Below are positions 18,529 through 28,054 of a stretch of 51,057 bases of DNA, one piece after another. The position numbers and the translations under genes were made by a program. The notes under the pieces were generated by a model. That model saw only the letters and a program-made list of their open reading frames with translations. It was not told the origin of the DNA and did no database searches. Source of the DNA: Actinomycetes bacterium (GTDB lineage Bacteria; Actinomycetota; Acidimicrobiia; Acidimicrobiales; JAJZXF01); NCBI GenBank assembly GCA_021802485.1, contig JAJZXF010000008.1:1-51057 (forward strand), in the 5' to 3' direction. Numbering within the stretch: the stretch's first letter is position 1; every line of letters starts with the position of its first letter.

Positions 18529-19068
18529 GTGCCGCGCAACAACGTCTCGAACGTCTCGCCGGGACAGCTCCTTCGGGAAGCACGCACGAGCGTCCATCTG
18601 TCGCAGGCCGACGTCGCTCGTCGAGCACGCATTGCGCAAAGCGTGGTCAGCGCGTATGAGTCTGGTCGCAGAGAGCCCTCTGTCTCGACGCTCGAACGCC
18701 TCGTCAGCGCGACGGGCCACCGCCTGGTCCTCAACCTCGAGCGCACAGGCGATGGCTCGGCGCTCGGCCTTCCCGACACCCCGCTCGGTAGGCGGCTCCG
18801 CCAGCGTCGCCGCGCGGTGCTCGCCTGCGCGGCGCGTCACTGTGCGAGCAATGTCCGCGTCTTTGGAAGCGTGGCGCGTGGCGAGGACCAGCTAGACAGC
18901 GATGTTGATCTCGTGGTGGACCTGGATGGGAACGTCGGGCTTCTTGCCTTGGAAGCCCTGCGCAGAGAACTCTCGGAGATCCTTGGCGTCTCGGTCGATG
19001 TCGCTCCGTCAGACAGCTTACGACCTCGCGTTCGGGAAGACGTCCAACGCGAGGCCATCCCGCTGTGA
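18529..19068 (+). CDS. mntA: XRE-type HTH plus nucleotidyltransferase (MntA-like antitoxin)
   Basis: 179 residues from GTG 18529. The N-terminal XRE helix-turn-helix (about 10-63) reads LLREARTSVHLSQADVARRA, then QSVVSAYESGRREPSVSTLERL. The C-terminal minimal nucleotidyltransferase has GSVARGEDQLDSDVD, a perfect GS-x10-DxD motif (G113, D125, D127). In type VII toxin-antitoxin systems MntA AMPylates and silences the HEPN toxin HepT. The stop overlaps the next start (GTGA), as in intact mntA-hepT pairs. The fused HTH suggests it also autoregulates. The partner toxin here is truncated, so the antitoxin is orphaned. Confidence 0.8.
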   Translation: MPRNNVSNVSPGQLLREARTSVHLSQADVARRARIAQSVVSAYESGRREPSVSTLERLVSATGHRLVLNLERTGDGSALGLPDTPLGRRLRQRRRAVLACAARHCASNVRVFGSVARGEDQLDSDVDLVVDLDGNVGLLALEALRRELSEILGVSVDVAPSDSLRPRVREDVQREAIPL

Positions 19069-19225
19069 GCCCGAGACGCGATGACGAGCGCCTCGCAGAC
19101 ATCGTCGACGCAATTGCGGCGATCAGAAGCCACCTTGCCCGCGGTGACCTCTCTGACGGGCTAGTCTTCGATGTCGTTCGAGTGCGTCTCATTGAAATTG
19201 GCGAGGCAGTGAAGCTACTCAACCG
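19065..19225 (+). pseudogene. hepT: HepT (HEPN/DUF86) toxin, truncated by a transposon
   Basis: It begins MSPRRDDERLADIVDAIAAI, then RSHLARGDLSDGLVFDVVRVRLIEIGEAVKLL, the standard first half of HepT/DUF86 proteins. Homology stops right after IGEAVK-L, and transposase-derived sequence continues in the same frame. The second half, which carries the catalytic RNxxxH/RX4HXY motif of the HEPN RNase, is missing. The product cannot be an active toxin. The 3' boundary is approximate. Confidence 0.75.
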
Positions 19226-20318
19226 TTCCTATACACTGCGCGATAGTGAGTATCGCTCAGTGGGTGGCCCCGATGAGCCCTGGGCCACCTGGCGCGCTTC
19301 GCTTCCGGTAGGCGCTATGGTCTCACCACCACCGCTTCGCGAGTGCCTCGTGCGCCCGTGCGGTGGTTGCCTCCTTCGCGTCCTTGGCTCTGGTTGCCTG
19401 GTACTTAGCCGCGACGAGGTGCCAGAGGTCGTGCGGGCAATGATCGTAACCACCTGCTCAAGCGATCCGGTCCCCGCCTTCGTCGCTGTGCTTCAAAGAC
19501 TGGTGAGCTCCGGAGTCTCCCTGGGCGACATACTCGCCGATTCGGGCTATGCACACCGCATCCCCAACAACTGGGCGATCCCGTTGCGCATGCTCGGCGC
19601 TAATATCGTTACTGACCTGCACCCGGCCGATCGTGGCAAGGCGGGAACCTTTGCCGGAGCACGCTGCTTCAACGCCAACCTCTATTGCCCTGCGACCCCG
19701 GAGGCGCTCTTCGAGGTGGAACCGCTGTCAAGGTCAGCAAGCTCCGAGGAGATCGAAGATCACGATAAGAAGACCGCCGAGCTTGCTCGCTTCAAGCTGG
19801 GGAGATTGAGTGCAGATGACCCCGACGGATATCACCGTGTTGGGTGTCCGGCTCTCGCCAACAAGATTCGCTGTCCGCTGCGTGCAGACTCGATCGCTCT
19901 CTCATTCGATCGTCCCGAGGTTCTTTCAACCCCGAAGCATCCACCGACCTGTTGCATGCAGGCTAGCGTCACTGTGCCACCTGCGGTCAACGCGAAGACC
20001 CGCCAGAAGCACGACTACCCCTCCAGGGCCCATCGCATCTCCTACGGGCGCAGAACCGCTGTGGAGCGCTCGAATGCCCGGATCAAGGACCCCGCCACGG
20101 TCGATGTGTCGCGGGGCTGGTGTCGGGTGATGGGGCTCGTGGTGATGAGCCTGTTCTTGGTTTGCGGCCTCGTCGTGCGCAACATAGCGGTCATCGATGC
20201 CTTCGAGGAGCGCCAGGAAGAGAACGCTCGCCGGGCACAGCTCGGAAAACCCCTCCGCACACGCAAGCGCCGGCGCAAGACCTTGACAGATCTTGCGGGC
20301 GCAAATGCGCCACCGTAG
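19226..20318 (+). pseudogene. C-terminal two thirds of a DDE transposase
   Basis: The in-frame continuation of hepT contains DEVPEVVRAMIV...DPVPAFVAVLQRLVSSGVSL, ILADSGYAHRIPNNWAIPLR, LYCPATPEALFEVEPLSRSA, NAKTRQKHDYPSRAHR and RRTAVERSNARIKDPATVDV, then MGLVVMSLFLVCGLVVRN. This is the typical C-terminal half of a common actinobacterial transposase. The N-terminal part with the first catalytic residues is absent, so the element is dead. Its frame fuses to hepT by chance, giving a 417-codon chimeric frame that could be mis-annotated as one gene. Confidence 0.75.
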
Positions 20319-20503: not shown

Positions 20504-20579
20504 TGGTGGGGACGGAGGGAGTCGAACCCTCACTGGAGGCGGTTTAAGCGCCTTGCCTCTGCCATTGGGCTACGTCCCC
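20504..20579 (-). tRNA. Class I tRNA with anticodon UAA (nominally Leu, atypical)
   Basis: The minus strand folds fully: acceptor GGGGACG/CGTCCCC, D arm GCCCAATGGCAGAGGC, anticodon stem AGGCG/CGCCT around loop CTTAAAC, a 5-base variable loop CCAGT, and T arm GAGGG-TTCGACT-CCCTC, with discriminator A and encoded CCA. The centre of the loop gives anticodon UAA, which reads the Leu codon UUA. Bacterial tRNA-Leu normally has a long variable arm (class II), and this one does not. It may be a mobile-element-borne or otherwise non-standard tRNA. It lies between the transposase remnant and the esterase gene. Confidence 0.85.
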
Positions 20580-20690: not shown

Positions 20691-22328
20691 TTACTTGAAG
20701 AGCGTAGGTAAGTGATCGAAGGTCCCCCAGAAGTGCCGCTCCTCCTCCATTGGTGCTTCGACCACCTTGGAGTCTGCGCCAAACAGCATGGTAGCTCGCC
20801 TTGAAGGATCATACGTGGGCCATGGCCCCAGGCCACTGTGAGAAGGATCGCTTGAGTGCGCGAAAGAGATCCACGCGTCCTGCATCTGGGTGGAAAGTCG
20901 TTCGGCCTGCGGTCCCGAACCAGCAAAGAGACCTACGAACGGCGACGAAAGTGTTCCAAACACGAAGGGCAGTTCGAGCGCATGGCAAGCTCCAAGTGCT
21001 CCGTCGAACGCAGGGGCTTCCCATGCGAATAGGTAGGAAAACGTTGCCGGTTGATGAGCCGCCTGAGCCTCGGCCATGTGAATGGATGGCATCCTGAACA
21101 CCCAGTCCGTAGCGATTCCGGACCAGATATCGAAAGGCGTGGTGCTCTCGCCGCGACTGTTGTGTATCTCACGGTAGGCGCTGGCAACGCGTTCCACTGC
21201 CGAGGCAAGGTGTTCTGAGGAAGGGGTCTGCGTGGAGAGTCCACGGTGTTTAGCGGAGCTGCCTGCCTGCTCTTGGGAGCCGTCAGGTCCACCTATGCGT
21301 TCGCTGATCTGGGCGGCTGTGGATGCCATGAAGCTCACCAACTCCGCCTCGTCCATGTCCTTTACCCACTGCTCCGCAACCGCGAACAGCTTTACCTCAT
21401 CGCGGTTTGTTCCGATTAGAAGTGGGATGTCCGCAGCGCATCCCGCGGCAAGCGCCTGAATGGGAGTTTGGCGAATGAGATTGCCATCAAGGACCGGGCC
21501 GTAGGGTAACCCGAGCGCCCCCCCAGCCCTTTCTTCGATATGACCTTGAGCAGCAACTATTTCAGCGGCAGGTATCTTCCTCATTGCTACGGGATCCACC
21601 TCGTCAAGTCCAAGGATCTCTGCAACGGCCTCTGCAGTGCGAGCAGCTACATCCATGTTGACGACTAGTGGCGGTCCGGATTGAAGGATTGCCCTTCGGA
21701 ACAATCCCCGCGAGATTTCCGACGCCATGAGGCATCCAACGCTCATGGCCCCAGCGGATTCTCCGAAGATCGTGACGTTTTCCGGATCCCCGCCAAATCC
21801 GGCAATGTTCTCTCGCACCCAGGAAAGCGCGGCTACTTGGTCCAGAAGTCCCCAGTTGGCGTCGAATCCTGACGCTTCGTCTCGAAGGCGGGGGTGTGCG
21901 AGAAAGCCAAGCGTTCCAAGGCGGTAGTTAAGCGTTACCACGACCAGGTCGCCTCTCGTTGCAAGGGTCGTGCCATCATAGAGGACGCTCGCGCCAGAAC
22001 CAGCCACGAACCCGCCACCGTGAATCCAGACCATAACTGGTCTGCGAGACGAGTCGAGACCAGGAGTCCACACGTTGAGCGTGAGGCAGTCCTCGCTCCA
22101 TTCGCTCGGGTCGCCTGGTACGGCGGTGATCGGCGACGGTGGGAGTTGCGGTGCTATCGGGCCGAACTCGCGGGCGCTAAGGGGTTCTTTCCACGGCTTA
22201 GGCTGCACCGGCGGGCGCCACCTCAGGTCGCCTTCTGGGGCCAATGCGTAGGGAATTCCGCGAAAAACCCACGTGTCTGCCTCGCGGGATCCAATGACCT
22301 CACCGAGATGTGTTTGAACAGTGCCCAT
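20691..22328 (-). CDS. Type B carboxylesterase
   Basis: Alpha/beta-hydrolase of 545 residues, the normal length for carboxylesterase/para-nitrobenzyl-esterase proteins. The N-terminus GEVIGSREADTWVFRGIPYA is the family start. SEDCLTLNVWTP is the type-B signature 2. The oxyanion hole is WIHGGGFVAGS, the nucleophile is in FGESAGAMS, and the His region near GACHALELPFVFG closes the triad. No signal peptide is seen, so it is probably cytoplasmic. It is divergent from the NlpC/P60 gene. The natural ester substrate is unknown. Confidence 0.9.
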   Translation of the reverse strand: MGTVQTHLGEVIGSREADTWVFRGIPYALAPEGDLRWRPPVQPKPWKEPLSAREFGPIAPQLPPSPITAVPGDPSEWSEDCLTLNVWTPGLDSSRRPVMVWIHGGGFVAGSGASVLYDGTTLATRGDLVVVTLNYRLGTLGFLAHPRLRDEASGFDANWGLLDQVAALSWVRENIAGFGGDPENVTIFGESAGAMSVGCLMASEISRGLFRRAILQSGPPLVVNMDVAARTAEAVAEILGLDEVDPVAMRKIPAAEIVAAQGHIEERAGGALGLPYGPVLDGNLIRQTPIQALAAGCAADIPLLIGTNRDEVKLFAVAEQWVKDMDEAELVSFMASTAAQISERIGGPDGSQEQAGSSAKHRGLSTQTPSSEHLASAVERVASAYREIHNSRGESTTPFDIWSGIATDWVFRMPSIHMAEAQAAHQPATFSYLFAWEAPAFDGALGACHALELPFVFGTLSSPFVGLFAGSGPQAERLSTQMQDAWISFAHSSDPSHSGLGPWPTYDPSRRATMLFGADSKVVEAPMEEERHFWGTFDHLPTLFK

Positions 22329-22491: not shown

Positions 22492-23784
22492 ATGATGGAG
22501 CGTGTGATCATACGCGTGTGTAATTGCCGTTCGTCGGATTGCGGAGCGTCCCCAGCTGCGCAGGCTCCCCAGGTGCGCGCGCGCCATCGGACCGTTTCGC
22601 AGAGCTTACATCGTTGCCTGCTCGGATACCCGTTCATGCTCTTGGTTTCGGCCGCGATGCTTCTTGGCGTCCTGCCGGCTGGCGAGGCGTCAGCCAGTCC
22701 CGTAGCTTCAAGTTCACCAGGCATCGCCTCGACCCAGAGCGAGGTGATGACGCTCGAACAGAAGATCCTTGCCCAGAGCGAGCAGATCGCATCCCTGAGC
22801 GAGCAGTTCGCTAAAGCTTCGTCGATGCTGGCCAGCATCGACTCGCGGGTTGCGCAGATCAATCTGGCCGTGGCTTTGACCAAGCTGCGAATAGCGACTG
22901 AGCAGTCACGTCTCAGGCGCGACGCGATCGACCAGTTCGTTCAGGACGCGCCAGCTTCGCAGCTCAGCATGCTCTTTGCTGGCAAAGCGAGCCAGCTTGG
23001 CCTGCGATCCCAATACATGGGGGTGATCCTTGGGAGTACGTCGGCTGATGTATCCACGCTGCAGGCAACCAGGCGTCACCTTGGTGGCCTTCAGGCTCGA
23101 TTGAAGATCGAGCAACAGAGCGCTGCGGCGACCGTCAGCCGAGTCCGTTCGAGCAGGAGTGCCGCAGTTGCAGCGAGCGCCTCTGAGCAGGCAATCCTTG
23201 TCAAGGTGAAAGGACAGCTGGCAGCCGAGATCGCACAACGCGCTGCTGCCCAAGCACGTGCAGCAGCAATTCAAGCTCAGCAAGCCGCGAGCGCAGCTCA
23301 GAGGCGAGCAGCAGCTCAGGTTGCAGCGGAGAGCTCGTTCCTCGCGGCGACCCTTGGGTCTCAACCGACCGGAACCACGCCCCCGCCTCCGCCCCCTACT
23401 GTACGGGGTTCCACGGCTGGCGCTATTGCGGTTCGAGCAGCTGAGTCCCAGTTGGGCGTGCCATATGTGTGGGGCGGTGCGACTCCAGGTGTCGGATTTG
23501 ACTGTTCTGGCCTGACGATGTGGGCATGGTCCCAGGCTGGGGTTCAGCTAGCTCATTTCGCAGCCACCCAGTATGCAGAGACAACCCATGTGCCTCTTTC
23601 GTCTCTGCAGCCGGGAGACTTGTTGTTTTACGATTTCGGCGGCAATGGGATCGATCATGTCACGATGTACGTCGGCTCGGGTCCCTATGGGTCATCCACC
23701 GTCATCCAGGCGGCGCACACCGGTACAAATGTCATGTTCTCTCCGATTTGGTACACCGGCCTGGTGGGAGCAGGTCAACCCTGA
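22492..23784 (+). CDS. Secreted NlpC/P60 (C40) peptidoglycan peptidase with coiled coil
   Basis: 430 residues. A hydrophobic segment around residues 42-66 (PFMLLVSAAMLLGVLPAGEA) is a signal peptide or anchor behind a long basic N-terminus. Two coiled-coil regions occupy about 80-280 (QKILAQSEQIASLSEQFAKA; later Ala/Gln-rich). After a short proline linker the NlpC/P60 domain has YVWGGATPGVGFDCSGL (catalytic Cys), QPGDLLFY, IDHVTMYVG (catalytic His) and IQAAHTG. The architecture matches RipA/RipC-type or CwlO-type hydrolases, whose coiled coil is regulated by FtsEX. A role in cell-wall cleavage at growth or division is likely. It is expressed from the leaderless promoter just upstream. Confidence 0.88.
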   Translation: MMERVIIRVCNCRSSDCGASPAAQAPQVRARHRTVSQSLHRCLLGYPFMLLVSAAMLLGVLPAGEASASPVASSSPGIASTQSEVMTLEQKILAQSEQIASLSEQFAKASSMLASIDSRVAQINLAVALTKLRIATEQSRLRRDAIDQFVQDAPASQLSMLFAGKASQLGLRSQYMGVILGSTSADVSTLQATRRHLGGLQARLKIEQQSAAATVSRVRSSRSAAVAASASEQAILVKVKGQLAAEIAQRAAAQARAAAIQAQQAASAAQRRAAAQVAAESSFLAATLGSQPTGTTPPPPPPTVRGSTAGAIAVRAAESQLGVPYVWGGATPGVGFDCSGLTMWAWSQAGVQLAHFAATQYAETTHVPLSSLQPGDLLFYDFGGNGIDHVTMYVGSGPYGSSTVIQAAHTGTNVMFSPIWYTGLVGAGQP

Positions 23785-23850
23785 TCACTCGATGTGTACG
23801 ACGCCTGAGAGCTGACCAGAGAGCTGGACCATTTAGCGTAGGCACGCGAG

Positions 23851-24636
23851 ATGGGCTGTGAGAAGCCGGAAACGTCGAGCAGAATGAGTTTTCGAGACAG
23901 TGGCCGGGACCAGGCAACGCTGTCGCGTTCGGTTGAGTTGTTCAGGGCGTTTAGAAAGGAGCAGACCGACCCGGCTTACTTCTACGAGCTTCTCGCTCGA
24001 GACACAGTTGCGCAGATGAGCAAGTACTGTGAGCTTGAAAACAAGCTGGTGTTGGATGTTGGCGGCGGTCCCGGGCATCTTGCCAAGGCGCTGCGTGAAC
24101 GTGGTGCCCGGGCCGCGTTCATCGAGTACGAGCCGGATGAGCTACTGGAGCAGGGCAGGAAGCTTGGTTGCGGGATCATTGGTGACGGATGTGAAATGCC
24201 GTTTGCCAGCGCGACCTTTGACCTTGCCTGCTCTTCCAATGTGCTCGAGCATGTACCGGAGCCCTTCCGAATGCTCGACGAGATGCTCCGAGTGGTACGG
24301 CCTGGTGGAGTGCTCTTTGTTGCCTTCACGAACTGGCATTCTCCCTGGGGGGGGCACGAGACCTCCCCCTGGCATTATTTCGGAGGCAAGCGGGCCGCAA
24401 GGCGCTTTGAGCGTCGCCACGGAAGGCCGCCGAAGAACCACTATGGCTCCTCGCTTTTCCCGCTTCAAGTGTCACATGTCCTTGCTTGGGCACATGGCCA
24501 GCACACAACCGGGACAGCTGAGCTTATCGAAGCATTTCCCCGTTACTACCCTCACTGGGCTCGCTGGGTAGTGTCGATCCCGATCCTGAGGGAACTAGCA
24601 ACGTGGAACCTTGCAATTGCGATGCGCCGTCGTTGA
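23851..24636 (+). CDS. SAM-dependent methyltransferase (Rv0224c-like)
   Basis: Class I methyltransferase of 261 residues. Motif I is LVLDVGGGPGHLAKAL with the acidic residue in FIEYEPDEL, then DGCEMPFASATFDLACSSNVLEHV and LRVVRPGGVLFVAFTNW. The C-terminal FTNWHSPWGGHETSPWHYFG...RHGRPPKNHYG is characteristic of the mycobacterial Rv0224c group. The start may be ATG 23851 or ATG 23884 (MSFRDSG). It precedes an acyltransferase and an epimerase gene on the same strand, which suggests a shared role in envelope lipid or glycolipid metabolism. The substrate is unknown. Confidence 0.85.
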   Translation: MGCEKPETSSRMSFRDSGRDQATLSRSVELFRAFRKEQTDPAYFYELLARDTVAQMSKYCELENKLVLDVGGGPGHLAKALRERGARAAFIEYEPDELLEQGRKLGCGIIGDGCEMPFASATFDLACSSNVLEHVPEPFRMLDEMLRVVRPGGVLFVAFTNWHSPWGGHETSPWHYFGGKRAARRFERRHGRPPKNHYGSSLFPLQVSHVLAWAHGQHTTGTAELIEAFPRYYPHWARWVVSIPILRELATWNLAIAMRRR

Positions 24637-24690
24637 TCTGAGGTTGCCAGGCTCGGTCCCGTGACCCCGGGTCGTGCTGGCGGAGATAGC

Positions 24691-25578
24691 ATGGGGGTTG
24701 TGACGACGGGCGGACAGGCTGCTGGGACGAACAAACGAGCGGCGCTTGTGCCGTTGCGAGCCGAGAGGCCGAAGGCGGCTCCATGTGACCCGCGAATGTC
24801 GGATGTTGACGAATGGGGCCGCTCCGAAAGGATGCGAACCATCATCCGGCGCCTGTCTACGCCGGTATACCGATACTGGTTCCGAGTGGAGTGGGAGGGC
24901 CTGGAGAAGATCCCCACCACGGGTGGAGCGTTGCTCGTAGCGAACCACGCTGGAGCGATCCCACCAGATGCGCCGATGATCATTCACGGGATCGAAGAGG
25001 AACTCGCCCGACCGGTGTACGGTCTCGCCGACTACTTTTTCAAGGAAATTCCCGTTGGGGGAACTCTTTGGGCTCGCCTTGGTGGCGTGACTGCCCATCC
25101 CGACAACGCACTAAGGCTCCTTGCCGACGAGGGACAGCTAGTGCTTGTGTTTCCAGAAGGCACAAAGGGCCCCAGCAAGACCTATGCCAGCCGCTATCGG
25201 CTAAGACGATTTGGCCGCGGGGGGTTCGTGGAAATCGCGATGCGGGCGGGAGTGCCGATAGTTCCCATAGCCGTAGTGGGGGCAGAAGAAGCAATGCCTA
25301 TCCTTTTCAGGTTGCCCCGTGTCGCGAAGAAGATCGGTCTACCCTACTTCCCGATCACGGTCAACCACCTGATGTTTGGCCCTATTGTTGGCAGCGCACT
25401 TTACTTCCCAGCCAAGTTTAAGATGAGAGTCTTGGACCCGATCAACTTTGATGTCGCGCCGGGACAGGAGCGTTACTCGAAGAGCAGGGTGATGGACGAA
25501 GCCGAGAATGTCCGCACGGAGATCCAGGAGGCTCTTTTCGACATGCTCCGCGACAGGCACTCTCCATGGCTGGGCTGA
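24691..25578 (+). CDS. PlsC-like lysophospholipid acyltransferase
   Basis: Acyltransferase of the glycerolipid (1-acylglycerol-3-phosphate) superfamily, 295 residues. The catalytic H-x4-D-like block is VANHAGAIPPDAPM, followed by the substrate-binding FPEGTKGPSKTY and VPIVPIAVVGAEEAMPIL. ATG 24691 is chosen because GGAG sits five bases upstream; GTG 24661 is also in frame. It resembles M. tuberculosis Rv0502, which also lies beside an epimerase gene (Rv0501). The next gene starts 15 bases after this stop, so the two are probably co-transcribed. Likely a membrane-associated enzyme of phospholipid or glycolipid synthesis. Confidence 0.85.
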   Translation: MGVVTTGGQAAGTNKRAALVPLRAERPKAAPCDPRMSDVDEWGRSERMRTIIRRLSTPVYRYWFRVEWEGLEKIPTTGGALLVANHAGAIPPDAPMIIHGIEEELARPVYGLADYFFKEIPVGGTLWARLGGVTAHPDNALRLLADEGQLVLVFPEGTKGPSKTYASRYRLRRFGRGGFVEIAMRAGVPIVPIAVVGAEEAMPILFRLPRVAKKIGLPYFPITVNHLMFGPIVGSALYFPAKFKMRVLDPINFDVAPGQERYSKSRVMDEAENVRTEIQEALFDMLRDRHSPWLG

Positions 25579-25593
25579 TCTTGATGAGCACCG

Positions 25594-26736
25594 GTGCGCG
25601 TATCCACTGCGACTGCTCAAATGACACGACGGTTGCCGGCCCTCATTCGACAGAGCGAGCACGCAGGAATGGTGAGAACCGTGGGTCGTAGGATACTCGT
25701 CACAGGCCTGGACACTTTTTGGGGAGGCAGGGTTGCCCAGGCACTTGAGGCCCGGCCGGATGTAGATGTCGTGCTTGGCCTGGGCACCGGAAGTCCCTCG
25801 GTTGCGCTCGACAGGACGGAGTACGTTCGCTCCGACCAGACTTACTCGATCTTGTCCCGGATAGTGCGCGCTGCGAAGGTGGACACGATCGTGCACACTT
25901 TCCTGATCGTCGACTCGACCTCCATGAACGCGCGCACATTGCATGAGTTGAACGTGATCGGGACCATGAACCTTCTTGCCGCGGCTGGCTCGGCCGACAC
26001 GCCAGTTCGCCAGGTAATAGTGAAGTCGTCAACGATGGTCTATGGGTGCTCAGCCAGAGACCCAACTTTCTTTACAGAGGAGATGGAGGGGCCGTCGCTG
26101 CAGCGAACCCGGCTTGAAAGGTCTCTTTTGGATGTAGAAGCGCTCCTGCGGGACTTTGCTGATGACAATCCATCCACAGTGGTCACCTTGCTCCGGTTTG
26201 CGAATGTGATTGGTGAGGAGATATCGACCCCAATCACGAGAAACCTGTCGCGCTCACTGGTGCCTTCGGTTCTCGGGTTCGACCCGCTCTTTCAGTTTGT
26301 TCACGAGACCGACGTGGTCCGCTGCCTGGAGTTCGTTACCATGCAACAGCGTCCGGGCATCTACAACGTCGCTGGCCGTGGCAGGATGCCATGGAGTGAG
26401 GTGGTGGCAATGGTCGGTACAAAGCGCCTGCTATTGCCACCTGTGGCAACCCGGCTTGCTGCGCTTCCGCTGATCAGGGCGGGCCTTATCGATCTCCCAC
26501 CGGAGATGGAATGCCTACTTCGCTACGGACGCGGAGTGGACACGAGTCGGCTTGAAAGCGCTGGCTTCGAGCACAACTTCACCTCGGCAGGCGCCGTAGA
26601 CAGTTTTGCTCGTGCGACGCGTCTCAAGCGGGCGGTCGGCACGACCAAGCCGAGCTACACATACGAAGCCGATGTGGAAGCGTTCTTTCGCCACTCGCCT
26701 ACCGTTGCGGCTAATGACCGCAGCGGGAAGGATTGA
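25594..26736 (+). CDS. NAD-dependent epimerase/dehydratase (Rv0501-like SDR)
   Basis: Extended short-chain dehydrogenase of up to 380 residues. The nucleotide-binding site is RRILVTGLDTFWGGRVAQAL, an atypical GxxxxxG variant. VDTIVHTFLI and NVIGTMNLLAAA follow, with STMVYG at the usual YxxxK region. There Y is followed by GCSARD rather than a clear K, so catalysis may be altered. The start may be GTG/ATG 25594 or a later one nearer VGRRILVTG (around 25,669-25,684). It directly follows the PlsC-like gene, as in mycobacteria. The substrate is unknown. Confidence 0.82.
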   Translation: MRVSTATAQMTRRLPALIRQSEHAGMVRTVGRRILVTGLDTFWGGRVAQALEARPDVDVVLGLGTGSPSVALDRTEYVRSDQTYSILSRIVRAAKVDTIVHTFLIVDSTSMNARTLHELNVIGTMNLLAAAGSADTPVRQVIVKSSTMVYGCSARDPTFFTEEMEGPSLQRTRLERSLLDVEALLRDFADDNPSTVVTLLRFANVIGEEISTPITRNLSRSLVPSVLGFDPLFQFVHETDVVRCLEFVTMQQRPGIYNVAGRGRMPWSEVVAMVGTKRLLLPPVATRLAALPLIRAGLIDLPPEMECLLRYGRGVDTSRLESAGFEHNFTSAGAVDSFARATRLKRAVGTTKPSYTYEADVEAFFRHSPTVAANDRSGKD

Positions 26737-26748
26737 TCTTAGTTCGGT

Positions 26749-27345
26749 TCAGCGGCCGCCCAGCCATTCGGTTGCGTACCAACCCCGTCTGGCAATCCAC
26801 TCTTCAACGGTTATCGCGTAGCGGACGTGGTCTTCCCAGCGGCCGTCGATTTCGAGGTACCCAACGGAAACGCCCTCGTTCCTCAGCCCAAGCTTCTCTG
26901 CGACGCGCCTGCTTGGCCGGTTCCTGGGGACGATCGCCACCTCCACTCGATGGAGGGCGAGCTTTTCAAAAGCAAAGGCGAGGAGCGTCGCAGTCGCCTC
27001 GGGCGCGTAGCCATTCCCAGCGTGGAGCTTGTCAATCCAGTACCCGATAAAACCACTCTGGAAAGGTCCTCGCTGGATCGATGAGAGGCTTGCCTCGCCG
27101 ACGAAGTGTTGTTCGGCCAGCGTGAAGATGCCGAACGCAAACCCGCTTCCAGCCTGCCATTCGCGATCGCGGATCTCGCAACGGGTCTGGTAAGTCGATC
27201 GGTTTTCCTCTGGGTAGCCGGCGGCGCTCGACCGTGGTTCCCAGGGCAGGAGCCAAGCTCTGCAGCGGGATCGAACCTCATGCCACGAAGCGTAGTCGTC
27301 CATCGTGAGCGGTCGAAGGATCACCTTAGGACAGCGCAACTCCAT
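26749..27345 (-). CDS. GNAT-family N-acetyltransferase (RimJ-like)
   Basis: About 198 residues from ATG 27345 (MELRCPKVILRPLTMDDYA), the family's usual opening. FIGYWIDKLHAGNGYAPEAT is the acetyl-CoA-binding block, followed by FAFEKLALHRVEVAIVPRNRPSRRVAEKLGL. This is the pattern of RimJ/RimL enzymes that acetylate N-terminal residues or small amines. An open frame continues upstream to 27492 but overlaps cysC. It is the last gene of the minus-strand run after cysC (about 55 bases away) and may be co-transcribed. No specific substrate can be named. Confidence 0.82.
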   Translation of the reverse strand: MELRCPKVILRPLTMDDYASWHEVRSRCRAWLLPWEPRSSAAGYPEENRSTYQTRCEIRDREWQAGSGFAFGIFTLAEQHFVGEASLSSIQRGPFQSGFIGYWIDKLHAGNGYAPEATATLLAFAFEKLALHRVEVAIVPRNRPSRRVAEKLGLRNEGVSVGYLEIDGRWEDHVRYAITVEEWIARRGWYATEWLGGR

Positions 27346-27400
27346 CGGTGCAGTCTCGCCGCTTCGTTGCCTCAGACGCCGGCCAGTAACCACCTCGACG

Positions 27401-28054
27401 TTACCCCTGTGGGTTTCCTTTGTCAGACAGGGCCAGTTCGGACACCACAATTCCCCGTGGTGGAGGGGTCCATAGGCTGAGCAGCTCATCAAGGATTACC
27501 TTGGCCGCGTCTGAGGCATCAGTGCTTGTTGACCCGTCAATGGTCACGTCTGGATGAGATGGAATTTCGTACGGGTCATCCAGGCCTGTCAGATCTTGAA
27601 GCTCTCCGCGCCTTGCACGCGAGTAGAGGCCTTTCGGATCGCGCCTCTCGCATTCTCGTGCTGGAGTAGAAACCCAAACTTCGAGAAATGGTATGCCCTG
27701 TTCTTCATGTCGGGCGCGTGCCCTTGCGCGCCCTTCCGCGAACGGGCTAACCAGGCTAACCAGGCTAACCAGGCCCGACTGGGCCGCGATCAGGGCAACC
27801 TCAAGAACCCGGCGGACGTTCTCTTGTCGTCCGGAAACAGAGAAGTCGAGGTCCGAGCACAAGCCTGTCCTCAACGCATCCCCGTCAAGGATGCAGCATC
27901 TCACGCCGCTTTCTTCCAGTAGGTTGGCGAGCGTAGCCGCGGCAGTCGACTTCCCTGAAGCCGGCAGTCCTGTGAACCAGACCGTAGCGCCGCGACCGTC
28001 GTGTACGGAGCCAGCCCTATTTGGCCTCATCGGTGCAGCCGGCAAGTCCCGCAC
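27401..28054 (-). CDS. cysC: Adenylylsulfate kinase
   Basis: Phosphorylates APS to PAPS. The P-loop is GLPASGKST; then ILDGDALRTGLCSDLDFS, the RQENVRR segment, SPFAEGRARARARH, FLEVWVSTPARECERRDPKGLY and GLDDPYEIPSHPDVTID. All are standard CysC blocks. It is 217 residues long and starts eight bases downstream of the cysN stop. Within VSLVSLVSP the DNA contains three exact tandem 9-bp units (27745-27771). CysC supplies PAPS for either sulfate reduction or sulfotransfer. No PAPS reductase or sulfotransferase gene lies in the window. Confidence 0.94.
   Translation of the reverse strand: MRDLPAAPMRPNRAGSVHDGRGATVWFTGLPASGKSTAAATLANLLEESGVRCCILDGDALRTGLCSDLDFSVSGRQENVRRVLEVALIAAQSGLVSLVSLVSPFAEGRARARARHEEQGIPFLEVWVSTPARECERRDPKGLYSRARRGELQDLTGLDDPYEIPSHPDVTIDGSTSTDASDAAKVILDELLSLWTPPPRGIVVSELALSDKGNPQG
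27745..27771 (-). repeat. Three tandem 9-bp units inside cysC
   Basis: GGCTAACCA occurs three times without a break, encoding the L-V-S repeat before SPFAEG. The number of residues matches other CysC proteins, so the repeats fill normal length. Slippage could still add or remove Leu-Val-Ser. Confidence 0.8.

Follow-up and report, generated by a model that had tools for sequence, protein, structure and literature searches.

The minus-strand gene at 20504-20579 of the DNA stretch that we analyzed (the window, 51,057 nucleotides of an Acidimicrobiales genome) is very probably a tRNA-Leu(UAA) with a class I body that is functional and resident in the chromosome; it would be the cell's only decoder of UUA and is presumably charged by LeuRS. 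The first-pass annotation had left three options for this gene: a leucyl identity on a class I body, charging with another amino acid such that UUA is recoded, or a decoy or mobile-element tRNA. The first is borne out by the leucine-only anticodons found on related bodies, the identity set, the mutual exclusivity with the class II form and the alignment of UUA with leucine. The second is contradicted by these anticodons and this alignment, and the third, for the window copy, by the conserved locus and its status as sole UAA tRNA, although phages do carry the family.

Structure of the class I tRNA

ARAGORN identified the gene as tRNA-Leu(taa), 76 nt long with an encoded CCA end (20504-20506) and with the anticodon UAA starting at position 34 (positions 34-36; 20544-20546, minus strand). 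The sequence matches the Rfam model RF00005 with 58.8 bits (E 3.1e-10), above the gathering threshold of 29. Read on the minus strand it is GGGGACG UA GCCC AAUGGCAG AGGC A AGGCG CU UAA AC CGCCU CCAGU GAGGG UUCGACU CCCUC CGUCCCC A CCA, with an acceptor stem of 7 bp, a D stem of 3 bp and anticodon and T stems of 5 bp each. The variable loop, CCAGU (positions 44-48; 20532-20536, minus strand), counts 5 nt and thus falls within the 4-5 nt of class I tRNAs; the long variable arm of a canonical class II tRNA-Leu is missing. As also seen on comparison with the relatives, U48 of this loop pairs with A15. The D arm (positions 10-25; 20555-20570, minus strand) carries A14 A15, G18 G19 and A20a as in class II tRNA-Leu (identity set in PMC9976931), and its stem has three pairs because C13.A22 is unpaired. 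The discriminator, A73 (20507, minus strand), is an A in 105/105 chromosomal and 90/90 viral relatives. ARAGORN, Rfam and the sequence itself therefore agree on the class I tRNA with UAA anticodon, 5-base variable loop and encoded CCA that had been described at first pass. The accompanying claim of a perfect fold holds for all other stems and fails for the D stem, where the C13.A22 mismatch, present in class II tRNA-Leu as well, is itself a tRNA-Leu feature.

The fold is far beyond chance, with a folding z-score of -2.83 against dinucleotide shuffles, and the helices covary across relatives: the share of canonical stem pairs is 99.7% in chromosomal (n = 108) and 99.5% in viral relatives (n = 90), compared to 80.5% and 73.3%, respectively, in a partner-shuffled control. 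A search for a sigma-70-like promoter upstream of the tRNA gave none.

Leucine identity and the meaning of UUA

Class I bodies normally belong to tRNAs for amino acids other than leucine, and on this ground one could suppose that it carries a different amino acid and that UUA is recoded. We consider this extremely improbable, given the identity elements, the anticodons found on the same body and the UUA codons themselves. In E. coli, leucine identity depends on A73, A15-U48, G18G19 and A20a, while the anticodon and the arm are not needed and tRNA-Leu variants without the arm stay active; in Aquifex, U8:A14 matters as well (PMC9976931). The window tRNA, with its leucine anticodon, has this set complete (A73, A15-U48, G18G19, A20a and U8:A14), and the elements are (nearly) invariant in its relatives. 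More explicitly, 105/105 distinct chromosomal and 90/90 viral class I UAA tRNAs have A73, A15-U48 and G18G19 without exception and leave 13.22 unpaired, and the same A73, A15-U48, G18G19 and 13.22 mismatch occur in 44 class II UAA tRNAs of the order. The combination of A73, A15-U48 and the 13.22 mismatch is absent from every other class I tRNA of the own genome. A precedent is human mitochondrial tRNA-Leu(UUR), which lacks a long variable arm and owes its leucine identity to A73 and A14 (PMC9976931), although that tRNA is organellar, has its own LeuRS and shows no sign of a common body.

The anticodons on related bodies point in the same direction. A pattern search of IMG/VR for class I UAA tRNAs recovered at least 84 distinct sequences, and when the body pattern was used with the anticodon left open, 80/80 distinct viral bodies among the matches listed had a leucine anticodon (UAA 67, CAA 9, UAG 3, CAG 1). 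That a leucyl identity is carried on the class I body is thus strongly supported by the sequences compared.

Class I genes with their surroundings gave 146 loci (1.24 Mb), in whose homologous ORFs UUA occurs at 2.17 per 1000 codons. At sites with at least three homologues, leucine was the majority residue for 65.7% of the UUA codons versus 77.2% of the CUG codons, and among all aligned residues leucine made up 57.1% for UUA, 61.2% for CUA and 64.5% for UUG. The leucine signal is somewhat weaker at UUA than at other leucine codons; still, the alignment of UUA with leucine counts against recoding, and UUA most likely means leucine in class I genomes.

The same codons bear on the proposal that the tRNA is regulatory in the manner of bldA, serving a small number of UUA codons found mostly in regulated genes. 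The GC content of the window is fairly high (0.605) and UUA is low in eight of its genes (5 in 3167 codons, 1.6 per 1000), as this proposal would have it, but these codons lie in ordinary genes, e.g. those for an NlpC/P60 protein, an esterase and a GGDEF protein, and the same holds for the UUA codons in the homologous genes of class I relatives. A regulatory context was looked for and not found, and the genomes of family f83 (which we take to be Streptomyces) that have a bldA-type sequence carry the class II form. As ordinary genes contain about 1.6-2.2 UUA per 1000 codons, bldA-like regulation is unsupported and, in our estimate, highly unlikely.

Class I and class II forms exclude each other

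The own genome has 42 tRNAs according to an RF00005 search. As classified by ARAGORN (39 of 40 tRNA loci plus the window), its class II tRNA-Leu genes cover CAA, UAG, CAG and GAG, and UAA is found solely as the class I gene; a pattern that ignores the D arm gave the same outcome. The check for a normal class II tRNA-Leu(UAA) elsewhere in the genome, suggested at first pass, thus turned up none in this 152-contig draft. On its own this is weak, since the genome is a draft and the initiator tRNA also went unrecognised. An assembly gap could explain a missing class II copy in the draft alone; it is excluded by hundreds of further genomes, an isolate and closed genomes. Apart from this, a candidate tRNA-Sec or second tRNA-Leu at L160 440-600 (G000:C61:6048-6136; 29.9 bits) was rejected as it reads as a 3' piece of a tRNA-Glu(CUC) without matching 5' half, which looks like an integration-site scar or a truncated gene.

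Among 218 Acidimicrobiales genomes (at least 90% complete), sequence patterns recovered the class I form in 42, the class II form in 133 and both in none, with an expected overlap of 25.6. Within a sample of 397 Actinomycetota genomes these pattern-based counts were 69, 211 and zero, with an expected overlap of 36.7. If the forms were independent, zero overlap would have a P of about 2e-21 and 5e-27, respectively, values that overstate the case because the genomes are related. Most genomes that matched neither pattern could be assigned to one form with the D-arm-free pattern, which gave class I in G127, G166, G192, G142, G014, G072 and G042. The same pattern detected no class II UAA tRNA in 35 class I genomes outside the order, closed ones included, and in the isolate Aciditerrimonas ferrireducens the UAA tRNA is of class I only. 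Both states occur within families f14, f30, f76, f89 and f103, and even within four genera of f76, but never in one genome. Actinobacterial genomes thus carry either a class I or a class II tRNA-Leu(UAA), and no genome in our samples had the two together. The window gene belongs, judging by these comparisons, to a large class I tRNA-Leu family as the resident and sole tRNA-Leu(UAA) of its Acidimicrobiales genome.

The two forms have much in common. Class II tRNA-Leu(UAA), including bldA of Streptomyces, shares with the window tRNA the anticodon, A73, A15-U48, G18G19, the D-loop GG-Y-A-G, the 3-bp D stem with 13.22 unpaired, the genomic role and, in f14, the locus. It differs in its arm of 13-19 nt versus the 5-nt variable loop, and in having G12-C23 where class I has C12-G23.

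A conserved chromosomal locus

Directly upstream of the tRNA lies a carboxylesterase gene (20691-22328, minus strand; Pfam COesterase, E 1.4e-110), followed by genes, identified by Pfam and synteny, for an NlpC/P60 protein, a methyltransferase, a plsC-like acyltransferase and an epimerase (22492-26736, plus strand) and for a GNAT acetyltransferase (26749-27492, minus strand). Using tblastn with the named window genes, we found that parts of this upstream gene order recur beside the class I tRNA in families f23, f32, f29, f39, f42, f44, f56, f30, f31, f41 and f14 and in Aciditerrimonas; the carboxylesterase is a neighbor in f32, f39, f42, f44 and f56. As the neighborhood recurs across families, we conclude that the class I gene was inherited vertically and did not arrive by a recent insertion.

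This bears on the possibility that the gene is a mobile-element or decoy tRNA, for instance the remnant of a prophage or integration site, without a role in host translation. Such an origin could be suspected from the abundance of the same family in phages, from the repeated 3' parts in G492 and G526 and the duplicate in G296 that suggest integration into the tRNA, and from the integrase gene adjoining the class I tRNA in Tsukamurella. However, the window neighborhood is chromosomal and its locus is conserved in about a dozen families, the gene is the only UAA tRNA in class I genomes and it is never found beside a class II copy in one genome, which together make this reading very unlikely.

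Second copies of the class I tRNA-Leu(UAA) or its 3' part were observed on the same contig at a distance of 4-78 kb, as a repeated 3' part in G492 (G492:C51:117739 and 129888) and G526 (G526:C71:33966 and 38055) and as a duplicated gene in G296 (G296:C1:2666663 and 2744541), which suggests that elements integrate in this tRNA gene. On plasmid 5 of Tsukamurella tyrosinosolvens (L537 3001-4275) a site-specific integrase gene directly follows a class I tRNA-Leu-like sequence. The transposase remnant reported beside the window tRNA could not be confirmed: the ORF at 19065-20318 has no Pfam or NCBIfam match, and the plasmid search gave a single 29.5%-identical 'hypothetical protein'. The window further encodes an MntA-like HTH-nucleotidyltransferase protein at 18529-19350 (plus strand; Pfam HTH_3 and NTP_transf_2), after which the apparent start of a HepT-like toxin is found and then interrupted, possibly representing a broken toxin-antitoxin pair beside the tRNA.

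Within f14, a comparison of G160 (class II gene) with G014 (class I gene) shows collinear neighbors on both sides, with the acyltransferase at +1.6 and +1.5 kb, respectively, and the epimerase at +2.3 kb in both. The class I genes of G142 and G207 have the acceptor stem GCCGGCG, the same as the class II genes of f14. The f14 pattern fits an in-place exchange or conversion of the two forms. A same-locus placement of class I and class II genes had also been considered for f30, but it did not hold up by tblastn synteny, and we claim such a placement for f14 only.

Distribution in chromosomes and phages

The homologues with the same class I body and a UAA or CAA anticodon, for which the first-pass annotation recommended a search, were found in many chromosomes and phages. 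The chromosomal signature was present in at least 118 stretches of named genomes, and among the matches listed nearly all were from Acidimicrobiales or unspecified actinobacterial MAGs, besides Aciditerrimonas ferrireducens. The search of the E. coli genome collection yielded no match. In family f88, genus g197, the sampled members had the class I form and none the class II form. G263 has a ribosomal protein S2 with about 94% identity to that of PDB 6dzi and 5o5j, presumably Mycobacterium smegmatis ribosomes. In M. tuberculosis, leuX (TAA) and leuV (CAA) are tabulated at 74 bp each, a class I length, with no remark on class (PMC9336784). They differ from the window gene in acceptor and anticodon stems, and the tRNA-Leu(CAA) of the window genome is class II; the sampled Mycobacteriaceae have the same body. 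Judging by these sequences, Mycobacteriaceae, Mycobacterium included, apparently carry a class I tRNA-Leu(UAA).

Phages with class I tRNA-Leu infect Salmonella, Erwinia, Mycobacterium, Streptomyces, Rhodococcus, Lactobacillus, Vibrio and relatives of Bacillus. The Felix O1-like Erwinia phage phiEa21-4 encodes three class I tRNA-Leu, with the anticodons CAA, AAG and UAA, and mycobacteriophage Rey one with UAG. The phage tRNA-Leu (Felix O1-like, mycobacteriophage, Lactobacillus and Streptomyces phages) share the body and the leucine anticodons with the window tRNA, but are mostly G1-U72, whereas in the window gene this pair is G1-C72 and the locus is a conserved chromosomal one. Overall, this first acceptor pair is G1-U72 in 76/90 viral versus 25/108 chromosomal class I tRNAs. 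Most phage copies are labeled plain tRNA-Leu. In phiEa21-4 (L182 2502-2824) the UAA tRNA was deposited as 'tRNA-OTHER' and the AAG one as 'tRNA-Leu CUU', and such annotations obscure the family. Our literature search, which did not extend to subscription papers that may hold a prior mention, found no description of a class I cytosolic tRNA-Leu in bacteria, and the family is apparently widespread and unremarked.

A possible route of exchange

In its elbow and acceptor end the window tRNA has retained the elements for leucine recognition (A73, U8:A14, A15-U48, G18G19, A20a and the 3-bp D stem with 13.22 unpaired), while it dispenses with the long variable arm. Since these elements, rather than the arm, are what bacterial LeuRS recognises, the host enzyme would charge this tRNA with leucine, and it would be the one tRNA that decodes UUA. 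Considering that genomes have one form or the other, never both, and that the two can occupy the same locus, one would repeatedly have displaced the other. We infer the direction and route of this exchange, as well as aminoacylation and expression. Displacement could occur by a documented route known as tRNA-dependent lysogeny: a tRNA brought by the phage takes the place of an essential tRNA of the host with the same isotype, as with the tRNA-Leu-CAA of mycobacteriophage Gaia in M. smegmatis (PMC10865867). In contrast to that system no prophage was recognised at the window locus, and the link is one that we infer. Tentatively, then, the essential tRNA-Leu(UAA) may have switched repeatedly between class II and class I across Actinomycetota, within families, even within genera, and in some cases at a single locus, and the class I tRNA-Leu of phages may have served as donors or intermediates. 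The arm would thus be dispensable and exchangeable, kept or lost under arm-reading enzymes, tRNA-targeting toxins or phage defences; we regard this joint reading as possible, yet rather less probable than its opposite.

Significance

Cytosolic tRNA-Leu is said to share its long variable arm with tRNA-Ser and tRNA-Tyr (PMC9976931). In about 17% of the sampled Actinomycetota genomes, apparently including Mycobacterium, the only UUA decoder is nevertheless a class I tRNA-Leu, which is also common in phages. Such genomes test in nature what was seen in vitro, namely that LeuRS can do without the arm. It also affects tRNA annotation, as a class I tRNA-Leu could be flagged as an isotype conflict. 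Finally, it raises the question why and how an essential tRNA changes its architecture, where one source of selection could lie in toxins and in nucleases of defence systems that recognise tRNA-Leu.
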